Source: a bacterium (GTDB lineage Bacteria; Vulcanimicrobiota; Vulcanimicrobiia; Vulcanimicrobiales; SCRA01). From it: DNA of 64,000 nucleotides. The position numbers were made by a program, and so were the translations under genes. This document shows, piece after piece, positions 11,788-22,825 of this stretch (the stretch's first letter is position 1; each line of letters starts with the position of its first letter). The stretch spans positions 1 through 64,000 of the forward strand of contig SCRI01000060.1 in NCBI GenBank assembly GCA_004298675.1. The letters run 5' to 3'. Below the pieces are notes generated by a model. That model did no database searches, was not told the origin of the DNA, and saw nothing but the letters and a program-made list of their open reading frames with translations.

Positions 11788-13011
11788 ATGGAGCACGTGG
11801 CCGTGACGGGCATGGGGATCGTCGCCCCTATCGGTCACGACGTCGAAACGTTCTGGCAGGGGCTGATCGAAGGCAGCTGCGCCGTGGCACCCATTCCAGG
11901 GGGCGACGGGCTCCCGGGGAACCGGCTCTGGGCCGCCGTGCCGGACACGTTTCTCGAGCGCGCGCCGCTGCCGGCCGAGGCACTGCGCAACACCGATCGC
12001 TTCACCCGCTTCGCGCTCGTCGCCGCAGATCAAGCCGTCAGGCAGGCCGCGGCCGAGCCGCTCGACACGCTGCGCACCGCCGTCGTCATCGGCAACACGA
12101 TGGGCGGCTTTCCCTTCGTCACGGCGGCGCAGCAGGAGTACCTCACGCAAGGCTCCCGCAGCGTTCCCCCCAAGCTCATGGCGTTGGTGATTCCCAACAT
12201 GCCGGCCGCCCGCGTCGCGCTGCATTATCGACTCCACGGTCCGCAGCTCGCACTCAGTACGGCCTGCGCCTCCTCACTCGATGCCGTTGGGCTGGCCGCG
12301 CGCATGATCGAGCGCGGAGAAGTCGATCTCGCGCTCGCCGGCGGAACTGAGGATCTCCTGGCCCATCTCGTCTACGAGAGCCTGATGCGCGCCGGAGCGC
12401 TCTCACGCAATCCCGATCCCGCGACCGCCTCACGGCCGTTCGACGCCGCACGCGACGGCTTCGTCATGGGCAACGGCGCCGCATTGCTGCTGCTGGAGCG
12501 CGCGGAGCACGCAGCCGCGCGTGGCGCGCGCGTCCTCGCGCACATCCGCGGCTATGGCCAGGTCGCCGATGCGTACCACATTACCTCGCCCGAGCCTAGT
12601 GGCGAGTGGGAATTATTGGCGATGCGCCATGCGCTCGACGACGCCGCGCTCGACACGCGCCGGACGCCGCCCGTGATCTTCGCGCACGGTACGGCCACGG
12701 TCGTCGGTGACGCCGCCGAGATCGCCGCGATCAACCGCCTGTGCGCGGCGTCCGCGCGTGTTCCCAGCGTGACCTCGCTCAAGGGCCACCTGGGGCACAG
12801 CATGGCCGCCTCCGGCGTCATGTCGCTGATCGCCGGCATCCTCGGTCTGGAACGCGGACTCGTAGTCCAGACGCTAGGCACGCACCGTGTCGATGCAGCG
12901 GCGCACTTCGACGTGGTGGCGGAACGTGCGCGGCCGCTCTCCTTCGATTCGTTTCACGTCAATGCGTTCGGCTTCGGCGGACAGAACTCGTCGCTCGTCG
13001 TAAGCCGCTAG
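11788..13011 (+). CDS. beta-ketoacyl-ACP synthase II-like (FabF family)
   Basis: This condensing enzyme elongates acyl chains on ACP. It has 407 residues. The catalytic Cys is in STACASS (about residue 160), the two active-site His are in FAHGTATVVGD and GHLGHSMAASG, and the Lys is in SLKGH. GAGAGGAG precedes the ATG. It is the first gene of the operon ending at 20088, with 44 nt to the EPSP-synthase-like fusion gene. In that setting it may extend, or be selective for, cyclohexanecarboxyl-primed chains, but this is inference. A general FabF role is the alternative. Confidence 0.88.
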   Translation: MEHVAVTGMGIVAPIGHDVETFWQGLIEGSCAVAPIPGGDGLPGNRLWAAVPDTFLERAPLPAEALRNTDRFTRFALVAADQAVRQAAAEPLDTLRTAVVIGNTMGGFPFVTAAQQEYLTQGSRSVPPKLMALVIPNMPAARVALHYRLHGPQLALSTACASSLDAVGLAARMIERGEVDLALAGGTEDLLAHLVYESLMRAGALSRNPDPATASRPFDAARDGFVMGNGAALLLLERAEHAAARGARVLAHIRGYGQVADAYHITSPEPSGEWELLAMRHALDDAALDTRRTPPVIFAHGTATVVGDAAEIAAINRLCAASARVPSVTSLKGHLGHSMAASGVMSLIAGILGLERGLVVQTLGTHRVDAAAHFDVVAERARPLSFDSFHVNAFGFGGQNSSLVVSR

Positions 13012-13041: not shown

Positions 13042-13080
13042 TATGAAGTCACGGGGTGTATATGTCCATGCGACTTCATA
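13042..13080 (+). promoter_or_regulatory. inverted repeat enclosing the start region of the fusion gene
   Basis: A perfect 9-bp inverted repeat (TATGAAGTC at 13042-13050, GACTTCATA at 13072-13080) flanks a 21-nt loop that contains all three candidate starts (GTG 13056, ATG 13062, ATG 13068) and the only purine-rich ribosome-site candidate (ACGGGG). In RNA it could present or hide the start. Chance occurrence is not excluded. Confidence 0.4.
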
Positions 13081-16058
13081 TCCAGGGGCCCACTCTTCCC
13101 CTGCGCGGCGAGTTGCTCGTGCCCAACTCCAAGTATCACGCACACCGCGCACTGATCCTCGCCTCGCTCGCACCAGGCACGAGCACGATTCACGGACTCT
13201 CCGATGCGCGCCACGTCCAGTACACCGTCGACGTGCTGCGCGCGCTGGGCACGCGCATCGACATCGAGCACGAGACGTTCGTGGTGCGCGGCGGCGCCTA
13301 TCACCCCTCGCGGCACACGATCTCGGTGGGCAGCTCGGGCACCACGCTCTACTTCATGACCGGCTTGGCGGCGCTGGCGGACGCCCCGCTCACGCTCACC
13401 GCGCAGAAGTACTTCCGCCGCCGCCCCGTCTTGCCGCTGCTGGAGGCACTGCGGCAGCTGGGCCTGCGCATCGACGCGGCAGCGGGCGGCTGTCCGCCCT
13501 TCGCGATCGAGCCGCGGCGCCCGCGCGGCGGGAACGTCCGCGTGGCGGGAACACTCTCGCAGTGGATCTCGGGGTTGCTGCTCGCGGCACCGTTTGCCAC
13601 CTCGCGCACCGTCATCGACGTGGACGGTCCGCTCAACGAGCGGCCGTACATCGACCTCACGCTGACGATGATGGAGCGCTTCGGCCTACGGGTAGAGGCC
13701 TCACCGGATCGGCTGCACTACGAGATCGAGCCCGGTCAGGAGGCGCGCCCGGCCACCGTCTCGCTGCCACCCGACGTGGGCTCCGCCGCGTTCGGTCTGG
13801 CGGCGGCCGCGCTCCATCCATCCGACGTGCTCTTGCGCGGCTTCGGCGACGCCGGCGACCATCCGGAGGCGCGCTTCTTAGACGTCTTGCGCGAGATGGG
13901 TGTCCCGCTGGAGCGCATGGAGGATGAGCGCACGCTGCGCGTGCGTCACGACGGCCCGGCATTGCACGGCGTGCGCGTGGATTGTCGCGAGCTGCCGGAC
14001 ATGCTGCCGATCCTCTGCACGCTCGGCAGCCTCGCGCACGGTGAGACTATTCTCGAGAATGTCGCCCACGTACGGCTCAAGGAGTCGGACCGCGTGGCGG
14101 CGATGCTGCAACTCAACCGTATGGGCGCCGACCTGCGCGTGGAGGGAGAGCGCGTACGCATCCACGGCGTACGCCAGCTGCGCAGCGCCTCGCTTTCGTC
14201 GTACAACGATCATCGCGTGCTGATGTCGCTCGCGATCGCCGCCACGCGCGCCACGGGTGAGAGTACGCTCACCTATCCTAACGCGTACCGCATCTCCTAT
14301 CCGATGTTCCTGGATTCGATGCGCTCGATCGGCCTCTCGATGTCGGTCGGCGCGCTTCCGGGCGAGGCCTTGGCGCACCGCACGGCGGCCGCGCGGCACG
14401 CTACCTCACCCACGCGCGCGGCGGCGCTAGTCATGCCAGATCTCGTGCGGCGCTGGTGCCGGGAGCGGCCAGGCGAGACCGCCGTCATCGACGTGCGCGA
14501 GGAACTGACGACCGCGTGGACCTGGCGGGAGCTGGGGGAGCACGTCGACCGCACGGCCACGCTGCTGCTGCGGTTAGGCGTGCGCCAGGGTGAGGCCGTG
14601 GCCTACCAGCTTCCCAACTGGAGCGAGTTCGTCGTCATCTCCTTGGCGGCGTTACGCATCGGCGCGACCTGCTGTCCACTGATGCCGATCCTGCGCGAGC
14701 GCGAGATGGCATTCATCCTGCAGCGCGCCAAGGCGCGCGTCGCGTTCGTCCCAGCTACGTTCCGCGGACGCAGCTACACTGAATCGATGGCGCAGGTCGC
14801 GCCGTCCGTGGCGACGCTCGAGCACGTCGTCGTGGTCGCGGCGGGGCGCGCGGCCAATCTCCCGGAGACACCGGGCGGACGCGTGCGGTGGCAGCGCTAC
14901 CACGACGCGCTGCGCGCCACGCCCATCGACCAGCGCGCCTTGGAGACGCGCCGTCCGCGTGCCGCTGCCATGGCACAGCTCCTCTTCACTTCAGGAACGT
15001 CGGGCGAACCCAAAGGCGTGCTCCATCGCAACGACGTGCTGATGCGCGCGGCGGCGATGCAGGCGGCGCATTTCGCGCTGAACTCCGCCGACCGCATCTT
15101 CATCCCGTCACCGCTCGCCCATCAAACCGGCTTCCTCTACGGCATGTGGCTGGCGTTGCTGCTGGGGGTACCGCAGATTCTGCAAGACGTCTGGAGGCCT
15201 GGCAACGCGCTCGCGGCGCTGCGTACGTGGGGCGGCACGTTCGTGCAGGCGGCCACGCCCTTCCTAGCCGATCTCGTGAAGGCCGTCGACGCCGGCAGCG
15301 CACCCCCGGCGGTCCTGCGCATCTTCGTCGCCACCGGTGCGGCCGTTCCACGCGTGCTGGCGCAGCACGCCACGAGCGCGCTGGGGACTACCGTCTGCGG
15401 TGCCTGGGGCACCACGGAGTCGTGCTTGGGCACGGCCGCCGCCCCCGGCGATCCGCCGGAAAAGGTCTGGGGCACCGACGGCCGAGCGCTGAACGGCGTG
15501 CGCATCCGCGTGACCGGCGCCGGCGGCACCACCCTGCCCTACGGCAGCGAAGGCAACTTCGAGATCGACAACCCCTGCATGTTCGCCGGGTATCTCGATC
15601 ATCCGGAGTGGACGGCGGCGGCCTACACGCAGGATGGCTGGTTCCGCACGGGCGATCTCGCCGTGATCGACGAGAGCGGCTACATTCGCATCACCGGGCG
15701 CGTCAAGGACGTCATCAATCGCGGCGGCGAGAAGATCCCGGTTGCCGAGATCGAGCAACTCCTCTACGGACATCCGGCCGTGGCGGAGGCGGCCATCGTC
15801 GCCATGCCCGACGAGCGCCTGGGTGAGCGCGCCTGCGCCTTCGTCGTCACCCGGACCAGCGCCGTCTTCAACTTCCGCGGTATGCAGCGCTATCTCGACG
15901 AGCTGCGCGTGGCCAAGCAGTTTTGGCCGGAGCGTCTGGAGCTCGTGCCCGAGCTTCCCAAGACCGCCTCCGGCAAGATCCAGAAGTACATCCTGCGCGA
16001 GCGCGCGCAACATCTTTCACCGCAGAGCGCGGAGGAGCACGTGCGTGGGCGTCGTTGA
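13056..16058 (+). CDS. EPSP-synthase-like / acyl-CoA ligase fusion (AnsJ-AnsK, PlmJK type)
   Basis: This 1000-residue protein joins two enzymes. Residues 1 to about 430 are an EPSP synthase fold (KYHAHR near 26-31, SQ 168-169, Tyr198, Asp315, KESDR 342-346, YNDHR 383-387). Residues about 455-1000 are an adenylate-forming CoA ligase (LLFTSGTSGEPKG 642-654, WGTTES 784-789, FRTGD 863-867, catalytic Lys974 in SGKIQK). The EPSP half keeps shikimate-contact residues but lacks the Lys that binds PEP in E. coli (K411 aligns with Ile413), and Asn94 is replaced by Ser93. In Streptomyces ansatrienin and phoslactomycin clusters an EPSP-synthase homologue and a CoA ligase start the route from shikimate to cyclohexanecarboxyl-CoA. 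I infer the same job: elimination of water from shikimate, then CoA activation. Confidence 0.88.
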   Translation: MYMSMRLHIQGPTLPLRGELLVPNSKYHAHRALILASLAPGTSTIHGLSDARHVQYTVDVLRALGTRIDIEHETFVVRGGAYHPSRHTISVGSSGTTLYFMTGLAALADAPLTLTAQKYFRRRPVLPLLEALRQLGLRIDAAAGGCPPFAIEPRRPRGGNVRVAGTLSQWISGLLLAAPFATSRTVIDVDGPLNERPYIDLTLTMMERFGLRVEASPDRLHYEIEPGQEARPATVSLPPDVGSAAFGLAAAALHPSDVLLRGFGDAGDHPEARFLDVLREMGVPLERMEDERTLRVRHDGPALHGVRVDCRELPDMLPILCTLGSLAHGETILENVAHVRLKESDRVAAMLQLNRMGADLRVEGERVRIHGVRQLRSASLSSYNDHRVLMSLAIAATRATGESTLTYPNAYRISYPMFLDSMRSIGLSMSVGALPGEALAHRTAAARHATSPTRAAALVMPDLVRRWCRERPGETAVIDVREELTTAWTWRELGEHVDRTATLLLRLGVRQGEAVAYQLPNWSEFVVISLAALRIGATCCPLMPILREREMAFILQRAKARVAFVPATFRGRSYTESMAQVAPSVATLEHVVVVAAGRAANLPETPGGRVRWQRYHDALRATPIDQRALETRRPRAAAMAQLLFTSGTSGEPKGVLHRNDVLMRAAAMQAAHFALNSADRIFIPSPLAHQTGFLYGMWLALLLGVPQILQDVWRPGNALAALRTWGGTFVQAATPFLADLVKAVDAGSAPPAVLRIFVATGAAVPRVLAQHATSALGTTVCGAWGTTESCLGTAAAPGDPPEKVWGTDGRALNGVRIRVTGAGGTTLPYGSEGNFEIDNPCMFAGYLDHPEWTAAAYTQDGWFRTGDLAVIDESGYIRITGRVKDVINRGGEKIPVAEIEQLLYGHPAVAEAAIVAMPDERLGERACAFVVTRTSAVFNFRGMQRYLDELRVAKQFWPERLELVPELPKTASGKIQKYILRERAQHLSPQSAEEHVRGRR

Positions 16059-17217
16059 GGATGCGCCGGCGTTCGACGAGCAGCGGTTCGCCGAACTCAA
16101 GGGCGAGGTTGCGGCATGGGTTGAGGGCGCGGGGGAGGAGTACGCGCGGCTCATCGAGCGCGAACACCACGTCCCCCAGGCGCTCTGGGAGGAGTTGCGC
16201 GCGCGCGGTTACCTGGCGCTCGCGGCACCGCGCGCCTATGGCGGCGCCGGACTTCCGTTCAGCCGCTACATGGAGTTGATGGAGCTCTTCGCCATGTCGC
16301 ATGCCTCACTGCGCATGATCGTGCACGTCGTCAACGGGGTCTGGCGCGCCTTGGATCGCTTGGCCGACGCGGAGCAGCGCCGGCGCTTCGTGCTGCCCTC
16401 CATCGCGGGCGAGATCGTCGTCGCCTTCACGCTCACCGAACCCACGGCCGGCAGCGGCGCGGATCTGCACTGCACGCTCGAGCGCGACGGCGACGCCTAT
16501 CTGCTCAGCGGCGAGAAGCACCTCATCACGTTCGGCACCATCTGTGACTACTGGCTGCTCTTCGCGCGCCTGGCTGGAACTTCGGGAGCGCAGGGCGTGA
16601 CGGCGCTGATGGTCGACCGCCGCACAGCGGGCGTGCGGGTGGAGGCGATGCCGGAGACGATGGGCGTGCGCGGCACCGATCACGCGCACCTGGTCTTCGA
16701 ACGCGCGCGCGTGCCGCTGGCCAACCGCCTGGGCGCCGAGGGCCGCGGCCTGGAGGTGGCATTCGATGGCTTTCTCACCCCCAGCCGTATCTCGGTGGCC
16801 ATGAGCTGCGTCGGACTAGCGCGCCGCGCGCACGAGCTGGCCGTCGCCCACGCCGCCCGGCGCATGACGTTCGGCAAGTATCTCGCACAACGGCAGGCCA
16901 TCGCCTTCATGATCGCCGAGAACGCCACCGACGTCGAAGCCGCACGCCAACTCGTGCTGCACGCGGCGCGCGCCTGGGAACGCGGCGCCGCCGACGCGGG
17001 TGCGCTCTCGTCGATGTCGAAGCTGCAAGCCGTCGACATGCTGGGGCGCGTCACCGACAAGGCGCTGCAGATCCACGGCGGCCTCGGCTACTGGCAGCCG
17101 CAGCCCATCGAGCGGGTCTATCGGGACGCGCGCGCCCAGCGCTTCGAAGAGGGTACCAATGAGATTCAGAAGGCGGTCATCGCGCGCGAGATCCTGCGGG
17201 GGCGGGTAGGCGCATGA
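16045..17217 (+). CDS. acyl-CoA dehydrogenase (AnsL-like context)
   Basis: This FAD flavoprotein introduces or isomerises a double bond next to a CoA thioester. The 390-residue protein shows [10 protein letters not shown] in the FAD/substrate region, and the C-terminal catalytic Glu in the family position within [13 protein letters not shown] 16045 follows GGAGGAG by about 8 nt and overlaps the fusion gene by 14 nt, which argues for translational coupling. In cyclohexanecarboxyl-CoA pathways an acyl-CoA dehydrogenase homologue sits in the same place among the genes. Its exact step here is inferred; an ordinary fatty acyl-CoA dehydrogenase would be the alternative reading. Confidence 0.88.
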
Positions 17218-18047
17218 AGTTCGCAGGCAAGATTGCGCTGATCACCGGATCGTCCCGTGGCATCGGCAAGGCGCTGGCGCTGACGTTGGCCGCGCAAGGA
17301 GCGACGCTCGCCGTCAACTACAAGAAGAACGAGGCGGCGGCACACGCTACCGTCGCGGCGATCGAGCGCCTGGGCGCGCGCGCCCTTGCCATCCGCGCCG
17401 ACATGGAGGACCCCGCCGAGATCGAGCGGCTCTTTGCCGAGACGGCAGCCGCCTACGGGCGGCTCGATCTCTTCGTCTCCAACGCCGCGGCCAGTTCGTT
17501 CAAGAGCATCCTCGATCTCAAACCTCACCATCTCGATCGCTCCTTCGATCTCAACGTGCGCGCGTTCGTCCTAGCCGCGCAGCGGGCCGTGCCGCTGATG
17601 AAGGACGGCGGGCGCATCGTGGCGCTCTCGAGTTACGGCAGCATCCGCGCCTACCCCACGTACGCCAATCTCGGCTCTGCCAAGGCCGCCATCGAAGCTT
17701 GGGTGCGCTACATGGCGGTCGAGTTCGCACCCTACGGCATCAACGTCAACGCCGTCAACGGCGGCATCATCGACACGGAGTCGGCGGCCTTCTTCTACAA
17801 CGTGCCTGGCATGGCGCCGCTCTCGAAGGTCCTGCCGAAGATTCCGCAGGGGCGTATGGGAACCGCGCAGGAGGTTGCCGACGCCGTCGCCTTCCTGCTG
17901 GGTCCGGAGTCGACGTACATCACCGGGCAGACGCTCGTCGTCGACGGCGGGCTCACCGTCGTGGCGCCGCCGTTCTTCGACGACGCTACCCCACCGCTCA
18001 CGCTGCCGGAACGCACCAACGCGAAGGCCACCGCTTCACGTGCTTGA
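17214..18047 (+). CDS. SDR enoyl reductase, FabL/ChcA-like
   Basis: This short-chain dehydrogenase/reductase has 277 residues, a TGSSRGIG cofactor motif (11-18) and an active site spaced Tyr150-x6-Lys157, not the usual Tyr-x3-Lys. That spacing is typical of enoyl reductases (FabI, FabL). The block [19 protein letters not shown] closely resembles Bacillus FabL. ChcA, the 1-cyclohexenylcarbonyl-CoA reductase of cyclohexanecarboxyl-CoA synthesis, is a reductase of the same superfamily. Its ATG overlaps the dehydrogenase stop (ATGA). I infer reduction of ring double bonds conjugated to the CoA ester; a FabL role in fatty acid synthesis cannot be excluded. Confidence 0.88.
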
Positions 18048-20088
18048 CGCCGCCCTGCGCGCCGGCCGCATCGGCACGCTCGCTCTTCCCAACCGCATCG
18101 TCATGGGCGCGATGCACCTGGGCTTCGAGTCGCGCGACGACGGCGGCGAGACGCTAGCAGCCTTCTACGCCGAGCGCGCTCGCGGCGGCGCGGGCTTGAT
18201 CGTCACCGGCGGCTGGGCCGTCAACCGCGCCGCTGCCGCCGGGCGCAGCTACGGCCTCGTCAACGAGGACGACGCCGCGCCGCGCCTGCGCCGCGTGGCA
18301 GACGCCGTGCACGCCGCCGGCGGACGCATCGCCTTGCAACTCTTCCACGCCGGCCGCTACGCGCCGCGTGCGTCCTTCGACATTCAGGCCGTAGCGCCGT
18401 CGCCGCTGGCCAGCACGTTGACGCGCGAGGAGCCGCGCGCGATGACGGAGGAGGACATCTGGGAGACCATCGCGCTCTACGCGCGCGGTGCCTTCCGGGC
18501 GCTGCAATTCGGCTTTGACGGCGTCGAGATCATGGCGTCCGAAGGCTACCTGGTCGACCAGTTCCTCTCGCCGCTGACCAATCGGCGCGACGACGACTGG
18601 GGCGGAGACGCCGCGCGGCGGCGGCGCTTCGGCATGGAGATACTGCGCGCCATCCGCAGGATGCTCGGCCCGGACATCCCCGTGATCTTCCGCATCTCCG
18701 GCGTCGACCTCATGCCGGGCGGCACGCCGCAGGACGACGTGCTGGACTTCGCGCGCGCGCTCGCGCACGAGGGCGTCGACGCGATCAACGTGGGCGTGGG
18801 CTGGCACGAGTCCCGCGTGCCCACCGTGCAGTCGCTGGTGCCCGCAGGCGTCTGGATCCGTTACGCCGCGGCGATCAAAGAGGTGGTGGGCGGCGTTCCG
18901 GTGATCGGCGGCAACCGCATCAATACGCTGACGCTGGCGGACGAGATCCTCGCGCGGGGCAGCGTCGACTTCATCTCGATGGCGCGCCCGTTCCTTGCGG
19001 ACCCTGCGCTCGTGTCCAAGGCCGCCGGCGGCCAAGCGCAACTGATCGATACCTGCATCGCGTGTAACCAGGCCTGCATCGATCGCTCGCTGAGCGATGG
19101 CGCCGTCTCTTGCATGGTCAATCCCCGCGCTGGGCGCGAGTTGGAGCTGCGTGAGGATCGCCCGGCCGGCAAGGCGCTGCACGTCGCCGTGATCGGCGGG
19201 GGCCCCGCGGGCATGGAGGCGGCACGCGCGCTCGCTGCGCTGGGCCACCGCGTCGAGCTCTTCGAAGCGCAGGTGCAACTCGGGGGCCAGCTCCGTCTGG
19301 CCGCGCGCGTCCCCGGCAAGGGCGACTACGGCGAAACGATCCGCTATTTCACGCACGAGTTGGCACGCTTGGGCGTCCGGGTCCGGCTGAGCGAGTGCTT
19401 CGGCGCCGCCGACGTCGAGCGCTTGCGCGCGTACGACGCCACCATCGTTGCGACCGGGGTGCGCCCGCGCGCGATCGACCTTCCCGGCGCCGATCTTCCG
19501 CACGTCCGCACCTACGCGCAGGCGCTGCTGGGCGAGCAAGAGATCGGACGGCGCGTTGCCATCGTCGGTGCCGGCGGTATCGCCGTCGACGTCGCGCATC
19601 TGCTCGCCTATGGCGACGCGGAACTCGACTCCGCAACGCGCTTTCTGTGGGAGCAGGGGCTTTGGAACGGCGGCGTGGACGGAGCACTGGTGATCGACCG
19701 CCGCCGCGTTGCCATGCTGCGCCGGGGCACGCGCGTGGGCGAGCACATCGGCAAATCGACGCGCTGGGCGATCCTGCAGGAGCTCCGCAGGCAAGGCGTG
19801 GAGACGCTCACCGGCGTGAGCTACGAGCGCATCGTGCCGGAGGGGCTCTGGATTCGCGACGAGCGCGGAGAGCGCCGGCTGATCGAAGCCGACAACGTCG
19901 TGATTGCAGCCGGCCAAGTGCCGGAGAACGCGCTCGCCGCGGCGCTGGCGCGCGCCTCGATCCGCCATCGCGTCATCGGCGGCGCACGCGAGGCCAAGGA
20001 GCTCGACGCCGTGCGCGCCTTCGACGAAGGCGCACGCGCCGCCCACGAACTGGGAGAGCGGCCGGTGGCCGCTCTCCCGCAGCCTTAG
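18040..20088 (+). CDS. FadH-like 2,4-dienoyl-CoA reductase / 2-enoate reductase (AnsM-like context)
   Basis: This 682-residue multi-cofactor flavoenzyme has an N-terminal old-yellow-enzyme TIM barrel with FMN (1 to about 335), then four Cys for a 4Fe-4S cluster (C339, C342, C346, C358; CIACNQAC). An FAD/NAD(P) domain follows ([15 protein letters not shown] at about 384-398). The dienoyl reductase residues are kept: Tyr in SEGY (about 170) and His in GVGWHESR (about 256). GTG 18040 overlaps the SDR stop by 8 nt. In this operon it is expected to remove ring double bonds from a cyclohexadienyl-carbonyl-CoA. The next gene, aconitase, converges on it. Confidence 0.9.
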
Positions 20089-20092
20089 ACCC

Positions 20093-22825
<2,733 letters not shown>

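Follow-up and report, generated by a model that had tools for sequence, protein, structure and literature searches.

A probable PlmJK-type fusion of an EPSP-synthase fold with an acyl-CoA ligase in a cyclohexanecarboxyl-CoA-type operon of Vulcanimicrobiota

The window analysed here comprises 64,000 nucleotides (positions 1 to 64,000, forward strand, of contig SCRI01000060.1, assembly GCA_004298675.1) from a soil bacterium of the barely cultivated phylum Eremiobacterota/Vulcanimicrobiota, represented by a genome that is 98.5% complete. At 13056-16058 on the plus strand it carries a single open frame of 1000 codons which, as an earlier note on this DNA had proposed, joins two enzymes. The EPSP-synthase-fold half (the J half; 13056..14363, +) contains a complete EPSP_synthase domain at residues 15-422 (Pfam PF00275, E 7.6e-86), and the acyl-CoA ligase half (the K half; 14364..16058, +) is likewise complete, with AMP-binding at residues 465-847 (PF00501) and AMP-binding_C at 898-974 (PF13193). 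The true start is probably ATG 13068, giving a protein of 996 aa, since relatives begin at that methionine. In the ligase half the motifs TSGTSGEPKG (residue 645), GWFRTGD (861) and PKTASGKIQK (968) are unbroken, and the top curated model is the cyclohexanecarboxylate-CoA ligase TIGR03208, at 477 bits and below its cut-off of 792. An AlphaFold2 model of the J half from an 11-member alignment (mean pLDDT 88.8, pTM 0.88) finds AroAs as its top matches in the PDB, the first being the E. coli enzyme with shikimate-3-phosphate (S3P) bound, at a TM-score of 0.85 and about 30% identity. No solved structure of the fusion-type (JK) clade was found among the PDB matches, which phmmer returned under the names of EPSP synthases or AROM proteins, with the sole exception of an entry titled as a designed serine hydrolase. 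We consider this protein likely to be a bifunctional enzyme of the PlmJK type, from an operon for cyclohexanecarboxyl-coenzyme A (CHC-CoA); it would 1,4-eliminate free shikimate, activate the resulting acid with coenzyme A (CoA) and provide the product for omega-cyclohexyl fatty acids.

The fusion is the second of five genes that all lie on the plus strand and that, from the fusion onward, overlap consecutively by 4 to 14 bases. The first is a FabF-like beta-ketoacyl-ACP synthase (11788..13011, +; PF00109/PF02801), assigned to the operon on gene order and distribution. The stop of the fusion is overlapped by 14 bases by a GTG-initiated acyl-CoA dehydrogenase (16045..17217, +), PlmL-like in its place, followed through an ATGA overlap by a ChcA-like short-chain dehydrogenase/reductase (SDR; 17214..18047, +; PF13561), which stands where chcA would and whose top PDB match is the enoyl-ACP reductase 3oic. 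The last gene, overlapping the SDR stop by 8 bases, encodes a FMN/FAD flavoenzyme resembling 2,4-dienoyl-CoA reductase (18040..20088, +; PF00724, PF07992), PlmM-like in position, with 2,4-dienoyl-CoA reductase 1ps9 as its top PDB match (E 7e-153). Two further reading frames were rejected as coding: an antisense frame at 18154-20280 (-), which overlies the flavoenzyme gene and has no NCBIfam match, and the upstream stretch of the open reading frame 15742-17217, where the acyl-CoA dehydrogenase begins at 16045. Table 2 of PMC5852498 gives the CHC-CoA genes of the phoslactomycin cluster in the order plmJK-plmL-chcA-plmM. The pathway guessed at in the earlier note is thus borne out by the operon partners, which stand in this published order, although the residue argument offered for it was partly wrong. 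The assignment of the operon to the CHC-CoA pathway is well supported.

Searching named genomes produced 378 relatives, and the 80 best were retained. These lie in Eremiobacterota metagenome-assembled genomes (MAGs) and in five MAGs that carry the label Gammaproteobacteria, as well as in many Actinomycetota, among which the fusion is common (Streptomyces, Kitasatospora, Kutzneria, Micromonospora, Lentzea, Arthrobacter, Cellulomonas, Sinomonas, Curtobacterium and Subtercola are represented, among others). Both domains share one frame at 72 of these 80 loci, so the fusion is no artefact of assembly. The order fusion, dehydrogenase, SDR, flavoenzyme occurs at 43 of the 80, with frames separate or joined (rows of 32, 9, 1 and 1); in 13 Arthrobacter and Cellulomonas loci the ChcA-like SDR is absent between dehydrogenase and flavoenzyme (L079, L080, L089-L092, L095-L100, L105). 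The eight unfused loci are the five labelled Gammaproteobacteria (L046, L047, L048, L050, L063), L112, L075 and L039, in the last of which the ligase is split across frames. The idea that the fusion serves to channel the diene acid to its activation is speculative; the EPSP-type frame is without ligase in the five Gammaproteobacteria-labelled MAGs and in L112. In the five MAGs the EPSP-type domain occupies its own frame and the ligase, where seen, a different one; of these, L046, L048 and L063 were placed in the tree, where they make up a single clade with 100/100 support. Their label may be wrong, because the AroA of one such MAG (L119) has its best score against the host AroA. The locus L075:8947-10353 of Streptomyces endocoffeicus holds a stand-alone JK-type EPSP domain that adjoins a LysR-type regulator gene, with no ligase or operon nearby, and the Lentzea genome of L058 has a second JK-type EPSP domain on a different contig (L160, genome G065).

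Could the fusion be the housekeeping EPSP synthase of its host? The window genome contains three EPSP-family genes, namely the fusion, one MurA (contig C3) and one AroA (contig C74), the last being the second, canonical AroA for which the earlier note had asked (G000:C74:157298-158527). An AroA-type protein is additionally present in all 25 further genomes tested that have a fusion-type domain. We therefore rejected the housekeeping role, as the host has a separate AroA. When 41 fusion-type domains and 10 AroA domains, picked from 86 and 28, are placed in a tree, a 100/100 branch seen in all 200 bootstrap trees splits the two groups; several AroA rows form long branches, which leaves the order within the AroA side unsure. 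The J half falls outside the canonical AroAs, and its Streptomyces and Kutzneria relatives fall inside the JK clade. That the J half is nevertheless a second working EPSP synthase, for instance a glyphosate-tolerant isozyme fused to a ligase by chance, appears highly improbable: it retains most contacts to phosphoenolpyruvate (PEP) and exceeds the NCBIfam aroA cut-off, but it has lost S23, R100, S169 and S197 invariantly, its operon partners are of the CHC type, and a separate AroA accompanies it in the host and in every one of the 25 genomes.

The loss of these residues is read from an alignment of 114 sequences, comprising 86 JK domains (one row of which lacks its 5' end) and 28 AroAs, with E. 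coli numbering for AroA. S23 corresponds to Tyr27 (Tyr in 85 of 85 JK rows against Ser in 28 of 28 AroAs), R100 to Tyr99 (Tyr in all 86 JK rows, Arg in all 28 AroAs), a swap overlooked in the earlier note, S169 to Leu167 (Leu in all 86, Ser in all 28) and S197 to Glu195 (Glu in 86 of 86 against 27 Ser and one Thr). The clade-specific residues of the J half are Tyr27, Ser93, Tyr99, Leu167, Glu195, His338 and Ile413. Wherever the JK row reaches, K22, R27, G96, R124, S170, Q171, Y200, D313, K340, E341, R344, H385 and R386 are unchanged, the conservation of K340, E341 and R344 being partly by construction, as the loci in named genomes were picked through the motifs KESDRVAA or MLQLNRMG. The pairings proposed earlier (K411 with Ile413, N94 with Ser93, S197 with Glu195, S23 with Tyr27) recur in the alignment. 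Among the shikimate contacts said to be kept, R27, Q171, Y200 and D313 indeed are; Ser169 is not, its place being taken by Leu167 in 86 of 86 rows, and the serine of the window matches Ser170.

An altered PEP site, as proposed in the earlier note, is rejected as the main change on the strength of the residue table. Most PEP contacts are kept: the PEP-related K22, G96, R124, R344 and R386 are retained in the J half, as are D313 and E341. PMC3411725 names Lys22, Arg124 and Lys411 as PEP/glyphosate residues, and two of these three are retained in the JK domains. At the K411 position the alignment restores no Lys to the JK domains, which have Ile in 85 rows and Gly in one, whereas the AroAs have Lys in 16, Val in 10 and gaps in 2; the single Gly belongs to the L075 row. 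The canonical AroAs of the phylum, the host AroA included, have Val there in 10 of 11 cases, with one gap. The change of K411 to Ile consequently says nothing about PEP, because the readable AroAs of the phylum themselves have Val at this position.

We take S169 and S197 of E. coli AroA to face the 3-phosphate of S3P. According to PMC8983318, the central domain of EPSP synthase (residues 21-241) binds the carboxylate and phosphate of S3P, and all four diagnostic swaps (S23Y, R100Y, S169L, S197E) lie inside it. The swaps may also act, to a lesser degree, on the PEP side, since the same domain also binds the phosphate of glyphosate (PMC8983318). We infer that the phosphate pocket has been rebuilt more than the PEP site, and a change centred on the carboxylate/phosphate half-site of S3P fits unphosphorylated shikimate and a 1,4-elimination, which makes this reaction a plausible one for the J half. 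It is distinctly unlikely that the J half instead acts on S3P, eliminating phosphate in the manner of chorismate synthase with no enolpyruvyl transfer and leaving the diene to the ligase. Phosphate leaves better than hydroxide, S3P is available in any cell with a shikimate pathway, and K22, R27, S170, Q171, Y200, D313 and K340 are retained; against this, S169 and S197, presumably phosphate-side in AroA, have given way to Leu and Glu in all 86 rows, and the conserved gene set includes no kinase or phosphatase.

What could be the course of the reaction with free shikimate? In the remodelled AroA site the EPSP-fold half would bind free shikimate rather than S3P, and would remove the 3-hydroxyl and a C6 hydrogen by 1,4-elimination to give a dihydroxycyclohexadiene carboxylate, with Glu195, in the place of Ser197, as a candidate for the general acid that helps the hydroxyl to leave. 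The ligase half would activate the diene acid with ATP and CoA, and the flavoenzyme, the SDR and the acyl-CoA dehydrogenase would reduce and dehydrate the ring to cyclohexanecarboxyl-CoA. This compound would most likely prime omega-cyclohexyl fatty acids, the adjacent ketoacyl synthase sharing in the extension. What the analysis establishes is the content and order of the genes, the fusion, the separate clade with its residue signature, the separate AroA and a genome in which no modular polyketide synthase was found; all of the reactions, the acid function of Glu195 and a lipid as end product are inferred. The order of the first two steps might also be reversed, with the ligase acting first and the EPSP-like half dehydrating shikimoyl-CoA. 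Both activities reside in one protein and the sequence leaves their order unfixed, but R27, whose role in AroA we take to be binding the carboxylate of the substrate, is unchanged in 85 of 85 rows, as expected for a free carboxylate, and an AroA-like closed cleft would leave little space for CoA; we regard the reversed order as quite improbable. More tentatively, and with somewhat more doubt than belief, we suggest that an EPSP fold has here been turned into a phosphate-independent shikimate 1,4-dehydratase using a Glu in the old phosphate pocket as its acid, and that a group of genera in the phylum builds omega-cyclohexyl membrane lipids with a dedicated ketoacyl synthase.

Within the phylum the fusion is found in 20 of 149 genomes, which belong to 3 of the 70 genera. 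The flanks of the operon in the window are housekeeping genes, with a cbb3 oxidase, isocitrate lyase and HtrA upstream and aconitase downstream. In a related genus the five-gene order is the same in 8 of 8 fully covered neighbourhoods (L024-L031), with different flanks. Two sister species (G002, G003) share the window's neighbours (isocitrate lyase, htrA, the ketoacyl synthase, aconitase) and are devoid of the fusion, the dehydrogenase and the SDR; their flavoenzyme is cut to approximately its first 314 residues (L170:6185-7227, L171:4166-3324). We read these loci as ones from which the pathway has been deleted naturally. Both retain an intact ketoacyl synthase, which suggests either another use for it or a recent loss. 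A search for phage or plasmid spread returned nothing in viral contigs, nor in plasmids at E 1e-60. A FabF-like synthase is linked to the JK operon in Vulcanimicrobiota and in the MAGs labelled Gammaproteobacteria, but at none of the actinobacterial loci seen.

CHC-CoA destined for omega-cyclohexyl fatty acids is the most likely product. The window genome has one FabH, three FabF-type ketosynthase (KS) frames of 407-430 aa and five weak thiolase-like matches in frames of 409-449 aa; no KS frame longer than 449 aa and no modular polyketide synthase (PKS) was found in it. Because the genome has no longer KS frame, a modular polyketide is unlikely, which leaves omega-cyclohexyl fatty acids as the best guess; the operon occurs together with a fatty-acid type synthase and without a modular PKS. 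That CHC-CoA is a starter for a secondary metabolite rather than for membrane fatty acids is unlikely, even though the operon genes of some Actinomycetota adjoin PKS genes (L093) or KAS/FabH-like genes (L053). In Kutzneria (L093) a type I PKS protein with AT, ACP and KS domains directly follows the operon, as expected for a CHC starter. Against such a product in the window stand the length of its KS frames, its housekeeping neighbours and the other genus with the operon in unrelated flanks. In Curtobacterium the genes ffh and rpsP and one for a tRNA (m1G) methyltransferase are found close to the operon, and in Arthrobacter the operon adjoins tuf, with no PKS seen at either place; these neighbours suit a lipid role. 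The fusion-type protein is present in 24 of 40 sampled genomes of the genus of the Curtobacterium locus L107, and reviews citing Suzuki 1981 state that C. pusillum contains omega-cyclohexyl fatty acids.

Several observations weigh against the assignment to a PlmJK-type enzyme serving lipid synthesis. The NCBIfam aroA equivalog TIGR01356 matches the J half at 330, above its cut-off of 287.25, so that automatic annotation would label 13056-14363 of the window, a non-AroA domain, as AroA. PlmJK-type membership rests on domains, gene order and clade, not on a direct alignment with PlmJK, and the choice of loci by motif, given above, inflates part of the conservation. The ketoacyl synthase gene occurs without the operon in G002 and G003 (77-78%) and in G030 and G051 (55 and 51%), and since these four genomes lack the fusion but retain a synthase of this kind, we rejected a strict tie between the two. 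In V. alpinus, the phylum's cultivated representative, the major fatty acids are iso-C14:0 and hydroxy acids, and the consulted passages of PMC9758169 report no cyclohexyl acids; the comparison concerns lipids, not operon content. No paper combining 'Eremiobacter' and 'cyclohexyl' was found in the open-licence literature, and no isolate or lipid data were found for the window's closest fetched relatives, all of which are MAGs.

The proposed pathway predicts omega-cyclohexyl fatty acids in Vulcanimicrobiota, which bears on their membranes and on the use of these acids as Alicyclobacillus markers. The Tyr, Tyr, Leu and Glu at E. coli positions 23, 100, 169 and 197 offer a recognisable marker of CHC-CoA synthesis, and the first step of that synthesis becomes testable on a defined domain.

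Among known systems, E. coli AroA (1g6s) shares its fold with the J half over the whole domain (TM-score 0.83-0.85, 30% identity) and has K22, R27, R124, Q171, D313, E341, R344, H385 and R386 in common with it; the J half differs by S23Y, R100Y, S169L, S197E and the non-diagnostic K411I, and by its separate clade. TIGR03208 is the best curated counterpart of the ligase half, yet the latter scores under the cut-off of that family, which presumably serves degradation. We take the ansatrienin genes AnsJ, AnsK, AnsL, AnsM and ChcA to be a related system in which J and K are separate gene names, and the J part of PlmJK to be its EPSP-like half. The fusion protein is of a known kind: antibiotic clusters already provide examples of the fusion, the operon and the pathway. 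According to feeding work cited in PMC8788734, labelled shikimate is incorporated into the cyclohexane carboxylic acid moiety of ansatrienin. In the phoslactomycin clusters the order plmJK-plmL-chcA-plmM and the gene classes are identical to those of the four window genes, and PlmJK (homologues lmP1/pnP1), first of the CHC-CoA set and bearing a joint JK name, is annotated as an AMP-dependent synthetase/ligase, the table of PMC5852498 being silent on its EPSP-like half. Neither the residue signature nor a CHC operon in Vulcanimicrobiota turned up in the open-licence papers searched, among which the primary papers on the ansatrienin and asukamycin genes did not appear. The phoslactomycin genes serve a modular PKS, of which none was found in the window genome, whereas the window operon is led by a ketoacyl synthase gene and hosted by Vulcanimicrobiota; what is new here is the phylum, the linked ketoacyl synthase, the deletion in two sister species and the signature of the clade.

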